A DNA stretch of 64,000 nucleotides from Methanomassiliicoccus sp. (GTDB lineage Archaea; Thermoplasmatota; Thermoplasmata; Methanomassiliicoccales; Methanomassiliicoccaceae): assembly GCA_012719175.1 (NCBI GenBank), contig JAAYAX010000004.1, positions 248,001 to 312,000 of the forward strand. The letters are read 5' to 3'. The notes beneath the pieces were generated by a model. The model made no database searches and was not told the DNA's origin. It saw only the letters and a program-made list of their open reading frames with translations. Below are positions 417 to 45,327 of this stretch, in pieces (the first letter of the stretch is position 1; every line of letters starts with the position of its first letter). The position numbers were made by a program, and so were the translations under genes.

Positions 417-523
417 TGGCGCCGAGGGAGAGATTTGAACTCCCGAGGCGGAGACCGCCAGTGGTTCGCTCGGAGATCTCTTTCTTTCGAGACCACCGCC
501 TTACCGGACTAGACTACCTCGGC
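417..523 (-). tRNA. tRNA-Ser(CGA) with a 19-nt intron and encoded CCA
   Basis: The minus strand folds as a class II tRNA. The acceptor is GCCGAGG paired with CCTCGGC, the discriminator is G, and CCA is encoded at 417-419. The anticodon stem is GTGGT/ACCAC, the long variable arm is GGCGG-TCT-CCGCC, and the T-loop is TTCAAAT. The anticodon loop CTCGAAA gives anticodon CGA (Ser, UCG codons). It is interrupted after position 37 by about 19 nt (467-485), the standard archaeal 37/38 intron site cut by the splicing endonuclease. The exact intron edges can shift by one base. Confidence 0.93.
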
Positions 524-30796: not shown

Positions 30797-31438
30797 CTAC
30801 AGCGCATCGTTGAATGTGACCTTTACCTCCTTGACGTCCCATAGGCTGCCGATCTTCTCCTTGATCTCGTCGCTGATGTTGGTGGCGAACAGGTTGTTCG
30901 ACGGCAGATCGATCGCCACCGCCACGGTCCCCTCCTCCACCTTGATCTCCTTGACCAGGTCGGTCCTCACGATGTCCAGCCCCGCCAGGGGGTTCATGAC
31001 CGTCTTCAGACGCCTCCGCACGACCTCCTCGGTCGTGGGGACCTTGTCCTTGATGAGTCCATGCCTCTCCTCGTAGTTGAGTATGGCCTCCCTCAGTCCC
31101 TCGACCGCCAGGACCGAGCAGTGTGCTTTGACCTTGGGGAGCCCACCCAGCGCCTCCGCCGCCTCTTTCCAGGTTATGGCCTTCGCCTCCTCGATGGTCT
31201 TCCCCTTGGCCAGCTCGGTGATGATCGACGCGGTAGCGATGTTCGAGGCGCAGCCGTAGGACTCGAACTTGATGTCCGTTATCACCTTCGTGGCGTCGTC
31301 CACCTTGATGTATACGGCCACCATGTCCCCGCAGGCCGGGCTGCCGACCATCGCCTTCCCGTCATCATCCTCGATCTTCCCCACGTTCCGGGGGTTCTTA
31401 AAGTGCTCAAGCACCGTCTCGTTGTATGGAAACTTCAT
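30797..31438 (-). CDS. iscU: IscU-type Fe-S scaffold fused to a DUF59/MIP18-like domain (pair A)
   Basis: Residues 1-130 are an IscU scaffold with all three ligand Cys: Cys36 in GSPACGD, Cys63 in SYGCASNIA, Cys107 in KAHCSVL. Residues from about 136 to 213 look like a DUF59/MIP18 (SufT/PaaD-like) domain (LKTVMNPLAGLDIVRTDLV, then VKEIKVEEG). They do not look like the C-x2-C NifU domain. The total of 213 aa compares with about 125 for plain IscU. DUF59 proteins act in Fe-S maturation, so the fusion would join scaffold and delivery functions (inference). It is last in the operon tusA-dsrE-iscS-iscU, 14 bp after iscS. Confidence 0.88.
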   Translation of the reverse strand: MKFPYNETVLEHFKNPRNVGKIEDDDGKAMVGSPACGDMVAVYIKVDDATKVITDIKFESYGCASNIATASIITELAKGKTIEEAKAITWKEAAEALGGLPKVKAHCSVLAVEGLREAILNYEERHGLIKDKVPTTEEVVRRRLKTVMNPLAGLDIVRTDLVKEIKVEEGTVAVAIDLPSNNLFATNISDEIKEKIGSLWDVKEVKVTFNDAL

Positions 31439-31452
31439 GTGTGGTCACCCTT

Positions 31453-32613
31453 CTACTTCTTCAACGGACTTATCCTCCTAAGATTAGCTACGATCGCTGA
31501 TATGGACTCCACCACCGCATCCACGTCCTCCGTTGTATTGAAGCGGCTGAAGCTGAAGCGTATGGACCCATGAGCGCGTTCATGGTTGCCGCCGATGCCC
31601 ATGATCACGTGGCTCGCCTCCAGCGTCCGGCTGAAGCACGCCGAGCCGGTGCTGACCTCGAACCCGCTCATGTCCAGGTGCAGCGTCATTGATTCTCCTT
31701 CCACGTAGTGGAAGGTGATGTTGGCGTTCTGCGGTGTCCTGCTCGTGGCGGATCCATTGATCATCGTATCAGGTATGGTGTCAAGGACCTTGCGGATGAG
31801 GCGGTCCCTCATCCCCCGGATGTAAATGTTCTCCTCCTCGGTCACCAATGACGCGGCTTTGGCGAAGCCGATGGCCCCGGGGATGTTTTCCAATCCCGCC
31901 CTACGGTTCGACTCCTGGAAGCCACCGTCCATCCACTTGGAGATGGGCGTCTTGCCGCGTATGTACAGTCCGCCCACGCCCCTCGGCCCGTGTATAGTGT
32001 GCGCCGAGATCGTGAGCAGGTCCACCGGCACCCTGGACACGTCCAGGGGCAGCCGCCGGAAGGTGTGGGTGGCGTCGGCGTGGTAGAGCACCTTCTTGTC
32101 GTGGCAGATGTCAGCGATGGCCTTGATATCCTGGACCGTGCCGATCTCCTGGTTAGCGTGCTGGACGGACACCAGCACGGTATCGGCGGCGATGCTCGAC
32201 TGCAATTTGTCCAGGTCCAGCAGGCCTTCCCCGTCCACGTCCAGGTAGGTTACGCGGAGACCGTCCTGCTCCAGGGTCCGGGCGCTGTTGAGGACAGGAA
32301 AGTCCTCGATCTTGGATATTATCACGTGGCTCCCCTTCTTCCTCAGGGCCTTGGTCACCCCTTTCAGCGCCATGTTGCTGGACTCCGTGTCCCCGGAAGT
32401 GAACGCCATGTCCTCCGCCGGCGCCTCCAGGCACTTGGCTAGTGACTCCCTGGCGTTGTCCAGGGCCTCCCTCGCATCCAGCCCCATGGAGTAGCCGAAC
32501 TCCGATGTGGCCACCGCATAATGCTCCAGGAAGTAGGGCTTCATCTCCTCCAGGACCCTTTCGTCAAGCTTGGTCGTCGCTGAGTTATCCAGGTAGTGGA
32601 TCTTATTGGTCAT
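31453..32613 (-). CDS. IscS/NifS-like protein lacking the PLP-lysine (pair A)
   Basis: This has the overall cysteine desulfurase fold (386 aa) starting IHYLDNSATTKLDERV, and keeps the sulfur-accepting Cys326 in STGSACFSRTLEASHV. Key PLP residues are changed. The Schiff-base Lys is Thr206 (SAHTIHGPRG, usually SAHK), the stacking His is Asp104 (IEDFPVL, usually EHHAVL), and the Gln after D-A is His183 (DATHTF). It should therefore not work as a normal PLP desulfurase. I recall an Archaeoglobus IscS reported to lack this Lys. It may serve as a structural partner or sulfur acceptor for IscU. The upstream tusA and dsrE genes support a sulfur relay. Confidence 0.88.
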   Translation of the reverse strand: MTNKIHYLDNSATTKLDERVLEEMKPYFLEHYAVATSEFGYSMGLDAREALDNARESLAKCLEAPAEDMAFTSGDTESSNMALKGVTKALRKKGSHVIISKIEDFPVLNSARTLEQDGLRVTYLDVDGEGLLDLDKLQSSIAADTVLVSVQHANQEIGTVQDIKAIADICHDKKVLYHADATHTFRRLPLDVSRVPVDLLTISAHTIHGPRGVGGLYIRGKTPISKWMDGGFQESNRRAGLENIPGAIGFAKAASLVTEEENIYIRGMRDRLIRKVLDTIPDTMINGSATSRTPQNANITFHYVEGESMTLHLDMSGFEVSTGSACFSRTLEASHVIMGIGGNHERAHGSIRFSFSRFNTTEDVDAVVESISAIVANLRRISPLKK

Positions 32614-32622
32614 GATATCTCC

Positions 32623-33042
32623 TCATATGAATAGCGTGATCTTGGATTGTTTCGCATCGTTCACGTACGTTCCCACCGCCCCGAACTCATCGATCAGCTC
32701 GGTCCGCAGGTCCTCCCTCTTGATTCCCATGACCTCCATGGTCATCTCGCAGGCGATCACCTTCCCACCCAATTCCCGGTAATCGCTCATCAGCTTGTCG
32801 AGGCTGGCCACGCCTGCCTTCTCCATCCTCCCCTTGACCATGGACCGGCCCAGGCCGAGCATGTTCATCCTCGACAGCTTGCCCTTGTCCAGTCCTCCCT
32901 TCCTGAGCCTCTGCAGGCCCCAGAAGGTGAAGTAGATGGTCGCCTCCATGCCCATGGATAGTGCGCCGTTCCCGACGATGAGGGCGCTATAGACCTTGTC
33001 CATCTCGCCGCTGTGAAGAATTATCGTCGCCCGGTCGGCCAC
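32623..33042 (-). CDS. DsrE/DsrF/DrsH-like sulfur-relay protein
   Basis: This is a 139-aa DsrE-fold protein. The strand-helix ATIILHSGEMDKVYSALIVG is followed by a long middle segment with GLQRLRKGGLDKGKLSRMN, then IACEMTMEVMGI carrying the conserved Cys near residue 98 that can hold persulfide. The GTG at 33042 is taken as start because tusA ends at 33045 and AAGGAGGG sits just upstream. It is translationally linked to tusA. It probably passes sulfur between TusA and the IscS-like/IscU pair. Confidence 0.83.
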   Translation of the reverse strand: MADRATIILHSGEMDKVYSALIVGNGALSMGMEATIYFTFWGLQRLRKGGLDKGKLSRMNMLGLGRSMVKGRMEKAGVASLDKLMSDYRELGGKVIACEMTMEVMGIKREDLRTELIDEFGAVGTYVNDAKQSKITLFI

Positions 33043-33044
33043 CT

Positions 33045-33290
33045 TCAACCCTCCTTGATCTTCCTTATGCGGATGCGCCACCGCTTCCCCTCCTCGGTCG
33101 TCTCCACCAGCTCTTGCCCCAGGGAATCGACGGCCATGGGGATCTCCTTCTTGGACGCGGGATGGTCACCGGTTATCTCGATTATGTCGCCCACTGCCGC
33201 CTTCCTGATGGCCTTCCTCGTCTCTATCAGGGGTATGGGGCAGTTCTTACTCGTGCAATCGATCTTGATCTCCGACAAGTTCTCAACCAC
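33045..33290 (-). CDS. tusA: TusA/SirA-family sulfur carrier
   Basis: This 81-aa protein has the invariant TusA motif C-P-I-P-L-I-E-T-R-K-A (Cys near residue 17, which forms persulfide), followed by the IF3-like fold (DIIEITGDHPASKKEIPMA). It is the first gene of the four-gene sulfur/Fe-S operon running to 30797. A TATA-like GGTTAATAAAG on the minus strand (33310-33320) lies about 20-30 nt before the ATG. Confidence 0.92.
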   Translation of the reverse strand: MVENLSEIKIDCTSKNCPIPLIETRKAIRKAAVGDIIEITGDHPASKKEIPMAVDSLGQELVETTEEGKRWRIRIRKIKEG

Positions 33291-33638: not shown

Positions 33639-34013
33639 TCAGCCGGACCTATGCCGATAATCATCTATCGCCTTCCTGAGGGCCTCGGGCGCCAGGATGG
33701 AGCAGCTCACCTTACTCTCCGGCATACCCTTCTCGAAAGCGTCGGCGACCGCAGCCTTGTCGATCTTGACAGCCTCGTCGATCCGCTTGCCTTTGACCAT
33801 CTCCGTGAACATGCTGCTAGAGGCGATGGCTGCCACGCACCCGAAGGTCTGAAAGCTCACATCCTCGATGACGTCGTCCTTCACCTTGAGGTATATGACC
33901 ACTACATCCCCATCGACATCGTTGGCGGCCTTGCCCACGCCGCTGGCGTCCTTCATCTCGCCAACGTTCCGGGGGTTCATGAAGTGCTCAATGACCTTGA
34001 CACCGTACGCCAT
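33639..34013 (-). CDS. IscU-type scaffold lacking the first ligand Cys (pair B)
   Basis: A plain 124-aa IscU begins VIEHFMNPRNVGEM. Where IscU has N-P-x-C-G-D, this reads N-D-V-D-G-D, so the first cluster Cys is Asp34. Cys59 (TFGCVAAIASSS) and Cys104 (SKVSCSIL) remain; the His normally before the third Cys is Ser. Assembly of a standard cluster would need another ligand or a partner residue. It follows nifS-B by 5 bp and is clearly co-transcribed with it. Confidence 0.88.
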   Translation of the reverse strand: MAYGVKVIEHFMNPRNVGEMKDASGVGKAANDVDGDVVVIYLKVKDDVIEDVSFQTFGCVAAIASSSMFTEMVKGKRIDEAVKIDKAAVADAFEKGMPESKVSCSILAPEALRKAIDDYRHRSG

Positions 34014-34018
34014 TATAT

Positions 34019-35200
34019 TTACCTCCCTTTGGAACCCTGGTGGAGAAGCGCTATCGGCGATATGTTCCGGAGCTTCGCGGTGACCTCCTCGATCGTGGTC
34101 AGGTACATCTCCGCTTCAGCTAGGGTGCTCATCTTAGATAGGGTTATGCGCAGGGAGCCCCGAGCATCCTCCTTCCTCACGCCGATAGCCTGGAGCACGT
34201 GAGACGTCTCTGTCTCCCTGGAAGAGCAAGCAGAACCGGTGGAGGCGGCGATGCCCCTCATGTCCAGGCTCATGATCAGAGCCTCTCCCTCGATGTAGTC
34301 GAACCTGAAGTGGGCGTTGTTGCACAACCGGCCCTCCCGGGGTCCGTTGAGATAGCAGCCGTCGATGTTCGCTAGCGTGCCCTCGATCATGCGGTCCCGT
34401 ATGGAGGTCATGCGCGCGACGCTCTCGTCCATCTCCGACATCCCCAGCTCGATGGCCTCCCCCATCCCTACAATACCCGGGACGTTCTCGGTCGATGAGC
34501 GCAGGCCCCTTTCCTGGCCCCCGCCATAGACTAGCGGCTGCACCTCGGTGCCATCCCGCATGTACAGGGCACCGATGCCCTTGGGGCCGTGGAACTTGTG
34601 CGCCGAGATGGCCATGAGGTCGATGTTGTCACGATCCACATCGATCGGTACCTTGGTCATCGCCTGCACCGCATCGGTATGAAAGAGGGCGCCCCCCTCT
34701 CTCGCGATATCACCTATCTCGCGGATGTTCTCGATGGTACCGATCTCGTTGTTGGCAGCCATGATGGACACCAGCACCGTGTCCTTGGTGATCGCCGCCT
34801 TCACCGTCTCGGGGTCCGCCCGCCCGTACTGGTCGACGGGCAGATAGGTAACGCGGAACCCCTGGCTCTCGAGGAAACGGCAGGTCCTCAGGACCGCGTG
34901 GTGCTCGATCGTGCATGTGATGATATTATCTCCCCGGTCGCGGCTCGCGTACGCCGCCCCCTGCAAGGCCAGGTTGTCCGACTCCGTCCCCCCAGAGGTG
35001 AAGACGATCTCTCGTGGCGCTGCTCCCATAGCCTTGGCCACCTGCTCCCTCGCCCTCTCCATGGCGGCAGCGGCCTCCCTCCCGAACGAATGGAGGCTGG
35101 AAGGGTTCCCGTACCAATTGTTGAAGTAGGGGTGCATGGCCTTCAGCACCCTGGGGTCGGGACGGGTGGTCGCGCTATTATCGAAGTAAACGCTATCCAT
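34019..35200 (-). CDS. iscS: Cysteine desulfurase NifS/IscS (pair B)
   Basis: This intact 393-aa PLP enzyme releases sulfur from cysteine. It has VYFDNSATTRPDPRV, the PLP-stacking His100 in CTIEHHAVLRTC, Asp176/Gln179 in HTDAVQAMTKV, the Schiff-base Lys202 in ISAHKFHGPKG, and the catalytic Cys325 in STGSACSSRETETSHVL. Of the two unbroken IscS-type genes it is the only one with a full active site. It heads a two-gene unit with iscU-B. An operator-like palindrome lies 13 bp before the ATG. Confidence 0.95.
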   Translation of the reverse strand: MDSVYFDNSATTRPDPRVLKAMHPYFNNWYGNPSSLHSFGREAAAAMERAREQVAKAMGAAPREIVFTSGGTESDNLALQGAAYASRDRGDNIITCTIEHHAVLRTCRFLESQGFRVTYLPVDQYGRADPETVKAAITKDTVLVSIMAANNEIGTIENIREIGDIAREGGALFHTDAVQAMTKVPIDVDRDNIDLMAISAHKFHGPKGIGALYMRDGTEVQPLVYGGGQERGLRSSTENVPGIVGMGEAIELGMSEMDESVARMTSIRDRMIEGTLANIDGCYLNGPREGRLCNNAHFRFDYIEGEALIMSLDMRGIAASTGSACSSRETETSHVLQAIGVRKEDARGSLRITLSKMSTLAEAEMYLTTIEEVTAKLRNISPIALLHQGSKGR

Positions 35201-41152: not shown

Positions 41153-42776
41153 CTATGGCCTCTTGGGTACATTGGTCTCGATGTGTATCAGGGAGTCCTC
41201 ATCGGCCTCGCACGAGTGGTCGTGCTCCTCCTTTTTGGCGTCAGGGGGCAGAGGCGGCTCCCTACCCTGCTTCCTAAGATAATCGTGGATGGCGTCATGA
41301 AGGGCGTCAGCGGCAAGGTTGGAGCAGTGCATCTTTTGTGGAGGCAATCCTCCCAGGTTCTCGGCGACGTCGTTCCGTGTGATCTTTAGGCCTTCCTGAA
41401 TGGTCTTGCCCTTTGCCAGGTCCGTCACCATGCTGCTGGTGGCGATGGCCGCTCCGCATCCGAAGGTCTTGAACTTCACGTCGGTGAGGACATCGTCCTT
41501 GACCTTGATGTAGATGTACATCACATCACCGCAGTTATGAACGGTGAACGCATCGGTGGCATAGGAGTGCTGGTCGGCGATTTCGAGGTTGTGGACCTTC
41601 CCAGTATACTGCATGGTATCTGTCGAGGTAATCGGCGTAAATAGGAAGCCATCTTTTATCCAGGAGTGCTCCTTTACTGTGCCAGTCAGAGCACATTCTA
41701 TGCCCAGTATTCCGCAGAGCTTCTTTAAAGAATTTACATCGCCGACATGGATGCGGTACAACTCCCTGTGGGTGATATCCTCTATGATGGAGCCCTTCTC
41801 CTTATAGATGGAGGGGATGAACCCTTTTCTAAGCGGCAGCGTCTTTATCTGTCCAGCCAGCTGGCCGGATATCGTGGAGTATCCTGCCCTTGGTACCTCC
41901 CTTACGATGTTGACATAACCGTCCCCTCTCCATAGCCCCTGAAGGAGATGGTGCTGCTTTTCGGATGGTAAGAAAAGCATGAAATCCGGGATCTGCTTGT
42001 TCTCCGCACCCTTGCCAAAAGTTTTCTCAAAACCCTGGCCAGGTTCGCGCTGTTTACTATGACTTATGTTGCATTGGTCTCTTCACGCGGAATAATCGAG
42101 GCATCTAGACCAAACTTGTCTTTGATGATCTTGACGACGTCTCTTTGATACTCCACCTCCTTGATGTGGAAGGTGAAGCATATATGCGCCTTGGTCACCT
42201 TGGTGACGGCATTGCCCTCCGCAAGATAATAACCAGCGAGGCGGAGAAAATCTGCATCCGCGGGCACTCTCATAGGAATGTCGGTGCTCCGATGGTCCAA
42301 CATTTTCTTTTGGAAATCAAGGTCGAACAACTCCTGGTCCTTAATCACCTTTAGAATCGGATAGACGGCAATATCTCGAGGCTGGTGGTCGCTGACATTG
42401 TACCATTCGGCATTCAGCTCTTTCTTATTGCGTGTATAGTTGAACTTGTGCTGGTCAGGCCTCTTCACCGCCAGTACGAGATGCTCCGGGGTCATCTCAA
42501 CTAATCCCAGCTTGTTCTTCAGACGGATTATCGGTCCATCATAGTCTCTCACATACCTCCGTTCGACCGTTGAGTATACCCCTTCATGAGTAAGGACCCT
42601 CCTTTTTCCTGCACGTTCTCGATCTCTTTGAAATGGTTGTTGAGATGGATCATGGTCCCACTGACCAGGCAGACGGGATTCCCGTCCTGGCCGATGCCAT
42701 CGGCGTCGGGGATGTCCCCCATGTTATGAGGGCTCGTGAAATGCTCCATTACCTTCTCAGTGTAAAGTTGTGACAT
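41153..42776 (-). pseudogene. Intein-containing IscU scaffold gene with two frameshifts (pair C)
   Basis: N-extein: MSQLYTEKVMEHFTSPHNMG to residue 35 (GNPV). C-extein: 41533-41153, starting CGDVMYIYIKVKDD and keeping the other two ligand Cys (TFGCGAAI, KMHCSNL), with a Cys/His-containing tail. An intein separates them. Two one-base losses break the frame. One is at the C4 run 42579-42582; one more base gives KGVYSTVERRY. The other is near 42066-42072; one more base gives ETNANISHSKQ. Without frame correction only an 80-aa fragment is made. The start ATG 42776 overlaps the end of nifS-C by 20 bp. Confidence 0.9.
41534..42671 (-). mobile_element. LAGLIDADG homing intein inserted before the first ligand Cys of IscU-C
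   Basis: All splicing blocks can be read. Block A is CLVSGTMIHL with Cys1. Block B is EMTPEHLVLAVK (T-x2-H). The DOD motifs are LRLAGYYLAEGN and LLQGLWRGDGYVN. Block F is VHNLEIADQHSYATDAF. Block G is TVHN, followed by Cys+1. The frame-corrected length is 380 aa. The insertion is between V35 and the invariant Cys of NPVCGD, an active-site position typical of inteins. Two one-base deletions (see iscU-C) disable it as read. Inteins in SufB are well known; I know of none in IscU. Confidence 0.92.
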
Positions 42777-43945
42777 CGTATGCAACTCCTTCGCTCAGTG
42801 GTGACATCTTTCTAAGTAGTTCGACGACAGGCCCGATGGTGGCATTGAAACTGTCCGCCTCCTCCATGGTGTTGTACTTTCACAGGGATAGACGCAGGGA
42901 ACCGTGGCACTGCTCGTGCCTTAGGCCCAGACCCCTAAGGACATGGGACGGCTCCAGGCTCTTGGTCGAGCACGCGGAGCCCGTGGAGGCAGCGATGCCC
43001 CTCATATCCAGGTGTAGTATCATGCCCTCCCCTTCGATGTAATCGAAGCGGAAATGGGCGTTATTGCACAACCTCTTCTCACCCCGTGGCCCGTTAAGGT
43101 ATGATCGGGGTATCGTGTCCAAGGTCGATCCGATCAGGCGATTACGGATGGCACTCATCCTGGCGACGTTCTCCTCCATCTCCGCCATCCCTATCTCCAG
43201 TGCCTTTCCCAATCCTACGATCCCCGGGATGTTCTCAGTGGAGGATCGCAGCCCTATCTCATTCCCTCCACCTTAGATAAGGGGGCGGAGCCTGATACCT
43301 TTACGGACAAAGAGGGCGCCGATACCTTTGGGACCATGGACCTTATGCCCTGATAGCGAGAGCATATCTATCTTCATCTTTCCGACATCCAGTGGCATCT
43401 TGGTCACGGCCTGGACAGCATCGGTATGGAACAGAGCACCCGCCTCCTTGGCGACCTCGGCGAGCTCCTTGATAGGCTGAATGGTACCGATCTCGTTGTT
43501 GGCGGCCATAATGGACACGAGGGTCGTATCCTTAGTGATGGCGTTCTTGAGATCTTCCACGGAGACCGACCCTCCTCGTCCACCGGAAGATAGGTCACCT
43601 TGAAACCCTGGGTCTCCAGGAACTGGCAAGTGTGTAGGACCGCATGGTGCTCCACGGCCGAGGTGATGATGTGCTTGCCCTTGCTCATGGAGGCGTAGGC
43701 GGCCCCTTGAGTGGCCAGATTATCGGACTCTGTCCCGCCTGATGTGAATATGACCTCCTTGACCTCTACGCTTAAGGCCCGCGCGGTGCGCTCCCTGCCG
43801 ATCTCCATGGCCTCATAGGCATCTCGGCCGAACGAGTGCAGGGAGGATGCGTTGCCATAGCTTCGGTGAAATATGGCATCATCTCCTGCATCACCCGGGG
43901 TTCCACCTGAGTGGTGGCACTGTTGTCAAAATATATCCTCTCCAT
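42757..43945 (-). pseudogene. Broken nifS/iscS cysteine desulfurase (pair C)
   Basis: The remains of a 396-aa enzyme close to nifS-B begin MERIYFDNSATTQVEPRV. There are four lesions: a one-base loss near 43861 (GC-TAT, where YGNAS should follow); a one-base loss near 43572 (CG-GTC, where VSVEDLKN should follow); an in-frame TAA at 43273-43275 (PLI-stop-GGGNE, usually Tyr); and an in-frame TGA at 42880-42882 (SLRLSL-stop-KYNT). Catalytic residues are still legible: Lys in [11 protein letters not shown] and Cys in STGSACSTKSLEPSHV. Two stops of different kinds plus two frameshifts argue for real decay. Confidence 0.92.
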
Positions 43946-44012: not shown

Positions 44013-44115
44013 AATGAATTGTAGGTCACAAGCCGGAGCGTTTTAATAAATGGGCCATCTTCGAGACCGTCACCATAGTCTGAAATATAGGCTATCCGAA
44101 TGGACGGTCGTTACC

Positions 44116-45327
44116 ATGGCCTTTGATAAGGTTCGACAAGATTTTCCGTTATATTCATCCGAGGACAAGGACATCGTCTACCTGGACAATGCCTGTCAGA
44201 CATTGCGGCCGCGGCAGGTCATGGAGGCCATGTCCGAGTACTACAATGATTTTCCGGCCTGCGGAGGCCGGTCCGTTCATCGCCTTGCTACCAAGGTGAC
44301 GATGAAAGTGGAGGAAGCGAGGGAGCATGTGGCCGATTTCATCGGCTGCTCCGATCCATCCTGCATAGTGTTCACCAAGAACTGCACCGAGGCGCTGAAC
44401 CTGGTGGCAAAGGGTTATCCCTTCCGCAGGGGGGACGCGGTCCTCACCACCGACATGGAGCACAACAGCAATCATGTCCCGTGGTTGCAGCAGCGTGAGG
44501 TTATAGGTCTTGAGCACCGGGTGGTAACCACGCCGACCTCAGGCCTTTTCGATGTTGAGAGATATAAGGTGGAGATCTCCACGCAAGTGGCCATGGTGGC
44601 CATGGTCCACACCAATAACGTGACCGGTGTCACCATTCCGGACAAGGACATTGTGCAGGAGGCCCACGATCGTGGCGCCCTGGTCATGCTGGACGGGGCC
44701 CAGTCCGCAGCTCACCGCCCCATCGATGTCGAGGATTTGGACGTGGACTTCTTTACATTTTCGGCCCACAAGATGCTGGGCCCTTCAGGGGTGGGTGTTC
44801 TCTATGGGAAGGAGCATTTGTTGGAGCGCCTTCAGCCGCTGATAGGGGGAGGGGGTTCGGTCGGTCTTACGGACTATGAGAAGGTCACCTTCCTTCCTCC
44901 ACCAGAGAAGTTCGAGGCGGGCCTCATGAACTACTCCGGGGTCATCGGCACGGGAGCCGCGGTGAGGTACCTGGACGGTCTGGGCATGGACGCGGTGGCC
45001 GAGAACGATTCGAAGTTGAACGGGATCGCTACGGTGGGTCTGCGAGAACTTCCTTCGGTATCGATACTGGAGCCTCAGGATGCACGGCATCGCGATGGGA
45101 TACTGTCCTTTAACATCAGGGGGATGACATCGCATGATGTCGCCATGATCGCGGACGAGGTCGCCAAGGTGGAGATCCGGTCGGGCATGCACTGCATGCA
45201 CCCCTACTTCCTCTCACGGGGGATAGAGGGTTGCGCTCGCGCCTCCTTCTACATTTACAATACGGAAGAGGAGTGCAGGAGGTTCGTGGACACCATCAAG
45301 TTCGTGGCGGACACCTTCTCCAGTTGA
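44116..45327 (+). CDS. SufS-like cysteine desulfurase (class V aminotransferase fold)
   Basis: This 403-aa PLP enzyme has the Schiff-base Lys in FTFSAHKMLGPSGVGVLYG, the His in DMEHNSNHVPWL, and the active-site Cys in EIRSGMHCMHPYF, the group II (SufS/CsdA) loop. The start at ATG 44116 fits the family (FDKVRQDFPLYSSEDKDIVY); an ATG at 44050 adds 22 residues. It is an independent source of persulfide sulfur beside the three IscS-type genes. No sufE or sufU is adjacent, so the acceptor is unknown. Confidence 0.9.
   Translation: MAFDKVRQDFPLYSSEDKDIVYLDNACQTLRPRQVMEAMSEYYNDFPACGGRSVHRLATKVTMKVEEAREHVADFIGCSDPSCIVFTKNCTEALNLVAKGYPFRRGDAVLTTDMEHNSNHVPWLQQREVIGLEHRVVTTPTSGLFDVERYKVEISTQVAMVAMVHTNNVTGVTIPDKDIVQEAHDRGALVMLDGAQSAAHRPIDVEDLDVDFFTFSAHKMLGPSGVGVLYGKEHLLERLQPLIGGGGSVGLTDYEKVTFLPPPEKFEAGLMNYSGVIGTGAAVRYLDGLGMDAVAENDSKLNGIATVGLRELPSVSILEPQDARHRDGILSFNIRGMTSHDVAMIADEVAKVEIRSGMHCMHPYFLSRGIEGCARASFYIYNTEEECRRFVDTIKFVADTFSS

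Follow-up and report, generated by a model that had tools for sequence, protein, structure and literature searches.

IscS of Archaeoglobus fulgidus (PDB 4eb5 and 4hvk; D199K variant, 4r5f) has no desulfurase activity owing to its missing Lys, and forms with IscU a [2Fe-2S] complex in which a cluster-ligand role has been proposed for IscS (PMC7585200). The absence of this Lys from a methanogen IscS has also been published, for IscS1 of Methanosarcina acetivorans (PMC7585200); this protein, encoded with IscU1 (MA0808-MA0807), has the sequence STGSACFS around its Cys, was insoluble, and appears in print only as a homologue of IscS whose gene clusters with four others of unknown function. In M. 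acetivorans, SufBC is dispensable and loss of IscSU2 causes only a cysteine-specific growth defect, from which the authors concluded that further factors await discovery (PMC10500019). The minimal ISC system (MIS), made up of IscS- and IscU-type proteins with no separate carriers or chaperones, has been described with a cysteine desulfurase, and the SMS system (SmsB-SmsC) of Methanocaldococcus carries out Fe-S assembly and is able to use sulfide (PMC12192291). TusA and DsrE sulfur carriers are encoded together in the dsrE-tusA cluster of Metallosphaera cuprina, which belongs to oxidative sulfur metabolism (PMC4175335). In Escherichia coli, a single mobile Cys loop of IscS delivers sulfur to TusA or to IscU, which are bound one at a time (PMC2854127).

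Here we describe a four-gene cassette that shares elements with several of these systems. The absence of Lys from IscS was known before, including in Archaeoglobus, as the initial annotation of the locus correctly stated; no account of the conserved cassette, of the reshaped IscS pocket or of its spread among bacteria was found in the open-access literature on TusA, DsrE, IscS and IscU in archaea.

The four-gene locus of Methanomassiliicoccus sp.

The window analysed is a stretch of 64,000 nucleotides, and all positions below refer to it unless a locus is named. On its minus strand, 33290-30797 encodes, in transcript order, TusA, DsrE2, an IscS homologue and IscU, separated by about 2, 9 and 14 bases; gaps of this size point to one operon. 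Pfam searches recovered the whole gene set of the initial annotation, each gene where it had been placed: tusA (33045..33290, minus strand) encodes a sulfur carrier of 81 aa with a CPxP cysteine, Cys17 (TusA, E 7e-22); dsrE2 (32623..33042, minus strand) encodes a DsrE-family sulfur carrier of 139 aa (DrsE_2, E 1e-35), with a possible ORF start at 33081, the GTG at 33042 being favoured by relatives of 139 aa; the iscS homologue (31453..32613, minus strand) encodes an IscS/NifS-type protein of 386 aa (Aminotran_5, E 5e-69); and iscU (30797..31438, minus strand) encodes a NifU_N domain (E 8e-45) to which a C-terminal FeS_assembly_P (MIP18/DUF59) domain (E 2e-14) is fused at about residues 137-207. 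The scaffold was likewise correctly described as intact, with IscU ligands C36, D38, C63 and C107 all present. The DUF59 fusion and a canonical iscS-iscU pair directly upstream had been overlooked.

This canonical pair (35200-33639, minus strand) is context outside the cassette. Its iscS (34019..35200, minus strand) encodes the PLP-binding Lys (SAHKFHGPKG), and its iscU (33639..34013, minus strand) has Asp in place of the first cluster-ligand Cys, a replacement seen in 5 of 36 IscU proteins encoded beside a Lys-bearing IscS. The canonical operon thus combines an intact desulfurase with a crippled scaffold, the opposite of the cassette. A third iscS-iscU copy (41153-43856, minus strand) is disrupted by several frame shifts; in its iscU, the first cluster-ligand Cys is immediately preceded by the end of an intein-like insert (HN/CGD). 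A cysteine desulfurase of the SufS type, with both Lys and Cys, is encoded at 44050-45327 (plus strand) and brings the NifS-like genes to four within about 14 kb. Elsewhere in the window (420-523, minus strand), a tRNA of about 104 bases is matched by Rfam and returned no hit with ARAGORN; it probably contains an intron.

The cassette resembles MIS in its IscS- and IscU-type proteins and differs from it in the addition of TusA, DsrE2 and the fused DUF59 domain, and in pairing an intact scaffold with an IscS that has no catalytic Lys, for which the desulfurase activity of MIS is predicted to be lost. A use of sulfide like that of SMS is proposed for the cassette, although the SMS scaffold is of the ABC-ATPase type and its proteins are unrelated. 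The joint encoding of TusA and DsrE recalls M. cuprina, whose oxidative metabolism and heterodisulfide-reductase-like flanking genes are unlike the cassette.

The altered pocket of IscS

The type of IscS encoded in the window, hereafter clade A, was collected from 97 loci, which provided 96 readable proteins. In the window protein, the substitutions named in the initial annotation are borne out by the codons: Thr206 (ACT, 31996..31998, minus strand) stands where the Schiff-base Lys is expected, Asp104 (GAC) replaces His and His183 (CAC) replaces Gln, while the mobile-loop Cys326 (TGC, 31636..31638, minus strand) is retained. Asn155 is replaced by Gln and Thr241 by Leu as well, so that the PLP contacts His104, Asn155, Gln183 and Thr241 are all absent. 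In canonical IscS, Thr241 contacts the PLP phosphate of the partner subunit.

Throughout clade A these states are nearly constant. Position 206 is Thr in 93 of the 96 readable proteins and never Lys, the remaining three having Leu, Pro or Ala; Asp104 is present in all 95 proteins aligned there; Gln155, His183, Cys326 and Arg352, which aligns with the substrate-carboxylate Arg, are each found in 96/96; and at position 241 at least 93 of the 96 have Leu, Val, Ile or Met, compared with Thr in 71/71 canonical proteins. Since no Lys codon is one base change away from ACT and no readable orthologue has Lys, Thr206 cannot be put down to one sequencing error, and the invariance of the replaced pocket across two domains of life indicates that it is maintained rather than the product of gene decay. 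With the Schiff-base Lys and most PLP contacts gone from all readable orthologues, desulfurase activity is predicted to have been lost. Lys226 (96/96), His312 and Phe327 are invariant in clade A and new to it; Lys226 and His312 are essentially missing from other IscS proteins. Because clade A keeps Arg352 and has a constant pocket of its own, a different ligand may occupy the pocket.

The protein nevertheless has a full-length IscS fold (phmmer E 3e-94 to 4eb5). An AlphaFold2 model built from 53 sequences has a pLDDT of 93 (an earlier model from 15 sequences was poor, with a pLDDT of 64), and Foldseek matches it to human NFS1, E. coli IscS and A. fulgidus IscS with TM scores of 0.94-0.96, that for the IscS chains 1p3w and 4eb5 being 0.94. 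Alignment with IscS structures, which the initial annotation had proposed as a check, finds the same fold with Lys206 absent. Within the model, pLDDT falls below 50 only in the Cys loop, residues 325-329. The best NCBIfam match, TIGR03402, scores 425 bits against a cut-off of 530.75, and the canonical neighbour is also just below that cut-off, at 528.7 bits.

The partner proteins are equally conserved at the positions that would handle sulfur or clusters. Cys17 of the TusA CPxP motif is present in 84/84 readable clade A copies, the conserved Cys of DsrE2 (residue 111 of the longer ORF) in 83/84, and the IscU ligands C36, D38, C63 and C107 in 95/95; together with Cys326, the sulfur- and cluster-handling residues of all four proteins are invariant or nearly so. 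DsrE2 scores 65.9 bits, below the NCBIfam DsrE2 equivalog cut-off of 210.

Distribution and gene order

Among 200 sampled genomes of the class to which the window belongs, 17 contain orthologues of the IscS at 60-68% identity, after which identity falls to about 45%. A scan of GTDB contigs identified 248 confirmed relatives, of which the best 80 have 63-72% identity; these best 80 come from archaea (Methanosarcinaceae, Methanotrichaceae, Methanofastidiosum, Heimdallarchaeota, Altiarchaeales and Methanomassiliicoccales) and from bacteria (Dehalococcoidia, Anaerolineae, Syntrophales, Atribacterota and Acetobacterium). The 97 clade A loci accordingly span methanogens, Heimdallarchaeota, Altiarchaeales, Chloroflexota, Syntrophales, Atribacterota and Acetobacterium. 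Many of the sources are metagenome bins; Acetobacterium wieringae, A. bakii and several of the methanogens are strains, and cultured strains that carry the cassette belong to Methanosarcina, Methanolobus, Methanohalophilus and Acetobacterium.

The order TusA-DsrE2-IscS-IscU, for which a search in other methanogens had been suggested, is kept there and far beyond: it occurs in 80 of the 97 loci, archaeal and bacterial, with median gaps of 9-12 bases. Contig ends interrupt a further six loci. The true exceptions are six Methanococcoides-type loci (L084-L087, L093 and L061) that have IscS-IscU without adjacent TusA or DsrE2, three Anaerolineae-type loci in which TusA follows IscU, and two loci from which one carrier is absent. 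A Thi4-family gene lies directly upstream in one of the Methanococcoides-type loci (L087), and one or more genes resembling Asp/Glu racemases lie between those of IscS and IscU in Dehalococcoidia (L097:7203-8685; also L071, L126 and L128). Comparison of the neighbours beyond the four genes at clade A loci found none that recurs from one lineage to another.

The Methanosarcina loci of this set have TusA and DsrE2 upstream of IscS. Judging from STGSACFS, which contains the clade A signature Phe327, M. acetivorans IscS1 is very probably a clade A orthologue.

Relationship to other Lys-less IscS proteins

Three further types of Lys-less IscS were distinguished. Type B, which includes A. fulgidus IscS, has Asp (once Gln) at position 206, and most of its loci likewise include TusA, accompanied in some by a shorter DsrE. 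Type C (L221-L225), from one Thermoplasmata family, has Glu at 206 and Ala at 183, with no TusA or IscU neighbour. Type D (three loci: L235, L239 and L240) has Val or Leu at 206 together with Arg104, Gln155 and His183; its neighbours include an IscU fused to DUF59 and lack TusA and DsrE2. A. fulgidus IscS and clade A IscS share the IscS fold, the absence of the PLP Lys, the retained loop Cys and the IscU partner, and near relatives of the A. fulgidus protein adjoin TusA and sometimes DsrE. The A. fulgidus protein differs in having Asp, rather than Thr, in place of Lys, in keeping His104, in the replacement of Gln183 by Ala and of His205 by Asn, and in the loss of Arg352; moreover, the IscU of this type that was examined (L217) has no DUF59 domain and its DsrE belongs to a shorter subfamily.

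In the free tree, type D is the sister of clade A (support 99), and A and D are separated from B and C (support 99), which places the window protein in a different subgroup from A. fulgidus IscS. A tree constrained to a single Lys-less clade scored even better than the free tree, and the AU test retains it (p 0.568); we therefore do not claim two independent losses of Lys, each coupled to TusA. TusA adjoins 99 of 121 Lys-less IscS genes and is an own neighbour at none of 71 Lys-bearing IscS loci (at L101, a single Lys-bearing copy adjoins a clade A cassette, whose TusA was not counted as its own). This co-occurrence rests on one or two independent evolutionary events and carries little statistical weight; a sign test on independent pairs had no power (2 pairs).

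Other Fe-S and desulfurase genes of the carrier genomes

Within one Thermoplasmata family of 16 genomes (f9, the family of G048), a SufB-type protein is found in 0/16, although SufBC has been described as universally conserved in archaea. Exactly one NifU_N protein is encoded in 15 of these genomes, and in 11 of those it is the cassette IscU; three genomes of genus g30 instead encode a separate IscU of about 140 aa alongside a Lys-bearing IscS of the canonical kind. This replacement of the cassette and the canonical ISC pair by one another supports a role of the cassette in Fe-S assembly. The genomes of this family also encode a SufS-type protein with Lys in trans.

Lys-bearing IscS, SufS or both are encoded in trans in most cassette genomes, that of the window included. 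In four Methanofastidiosaceae (G211, G531, G535 and G536), the clade A protein is the only IscS/SufS-type protein found, each absence being weak on its own because the genomes are drafts; the next class V match in G211 is aminotransferase-like, and SufB is present in all four. Methanothrix harundinacea (G201) was dropped as a further example of this kind, as its relatives often have SufS-like and canonical IscS-like proteins and their absence from this draft may reflect its incompleteness.

Possible routes of sulfur to IscU

The explanation that we favour, with confidence little better than even, is that the cassette is a self-contained Fe-S assembly unit in which TusA and DsrE2 supply sulfur to Cys326 of IscS, and Cys326 supplies IscU, without PLP chemistry. 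TusA and DsrE2 would pick up sulfane sulfur from reduced pools (polysulfide or sulfide-derived) or possibly also from a desulfurase in trans and pass it to Cys326 of an IscS that has given up PLP-dependent cysteine desulfuration and retained the IscS fold, the presumed dimer and the mobile Cys loop; the loop would then swing to IscU, where sulfur and iron would form a cluster on C36, D38, C63 and C107, and the fused MIP18/DUF59-type domain may aid transfer of the cluster to its targets. The simplest reading of such a pathway is that the loop geometry of E. coli IscS is run in reverse, with TusA and DsrE2 loading Cys326 and Cys326 serving IscU. Counting against this reading are the Lys-bearing IscS or SufS encoded in trans in most of these genomes, and the six Methanococcoides-type and three type D loci where IscS-IscU has no TusA or DsrE2 beside it. 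The suggestion in the initial annotation that sulfur comes from a relay or from sulfide, not from cysteine, is partly supported: a non-cysteine route at this protein fits the lost Lys and PLP contacts, the conserved carriers, the genomes in which the clade A protein is the sole IscS/SufS-type protein and the Thermoplasmata family in which the cassette scaffold stands alone. The sulfur itself may stem from sulfide or polysulfide, or from a canonical desulfurase in trans by way of TusA, and Cys326 may either carry it or act solely as a cluster ligand, as proposed for A. fulgidus.

The A. fulgidus precedent, an inactive IscS in a [2Fe-2S] complex with IscU (PMC7585200), suggests another arrangement, in which clade A IscS is a structural partner whose Cys326 ligates a nascent [2Fe-2S] cluster on IscU, free sulfide is the donor, and TusA and DsrE2 serve some other purpose, for example the capture of sulfide or the thiolation of tRNA. 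The six Methanococcoides-type and three type D loci without adjacent TusA or DsrE2 are in keeping with it, but we consider it unlikely, given that tusA and dsrE2 are closely linked in 80 loci from two domains and that clade A differs from the A. fulgidus type at positions 206, 104, 183, 205 and 352.

Cysteine may be the ultimate source of sulfur if TusA is charged by a canonical IscS or SufS acting in trans and the sulfur then travels through the cassette to a dedicated scaffold. Transfer from IscS to TusA is established in E. coli (PMC2854127), a canonical iscS adjoins the cassette of the window, and most carriers could provide the Lys-bearing enzyme; the four cassette-bearing Methanofastidiosaceae drafts with no other IscS/SufS-type protein argue against this relay, which we regard as unlikely.

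Relocation of the chemistry within IscS is very improbable: invariant Lys226 (not seen at that site in the other types) and Arg352 (lost in the A. fulgidus type) would be expected if PLP or another ligand were bound through a different residue, such as Lys226, and cysteine or another thiol were still desulfurated, yet four more PLP contacts are replaced (H104D, N155Q, Q183H and T241 to Leu or Val). A cassette that transfers sulfur for tRNA thiolation or for some other cofactor, with IscU as mere sulfur acceptor, would agree with functions of TusA and DsrE proteins elsewhere in tRNA thiolation and sulfur oxidation (PMC2854127, PMC4175335) but is extremely doubtful in view of the invariant IscU ligands, the fusion of IscU to an Fe-S assembly domain and the 11 Thermoplasmata genomes that lack SufB and have no NifU-type scaffold other than the cassette IscU.

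Implications for Fe-S assembly in anaerobes

Returning to the favoured relay through Cys326, we tentatively raise a broader possibility: that the cassette represents a widespread Fe-S assembly system, distinct in chemistry from ISC, NIF, SUF and SMS, whose core is a one-time PLP enzyme converted into a persulfide-transfer hub that works without PLP and receives sulfur of sulfide or polysulfide origin through TusA and DsrE2. Some anaerobic archaea may depend on such a system mainly or wholly for Fe-S assembly. If so, an enzyme with a common cofactor would have turned into a cofactor-free partner in sulfur transfer. The presence of the cassette in cultured strains makes deletion and reconstitution tests feasible. 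The cassette is a concrete candidate for the means by which anaerobes living on sulfide could bring sulfur into Fe-S clusters without cysteine; it suggests that many archaea and anaerobic bacteria may build Fe-S clusters from carried sulfur or sulfide, rather than from cysteine split at IscS.
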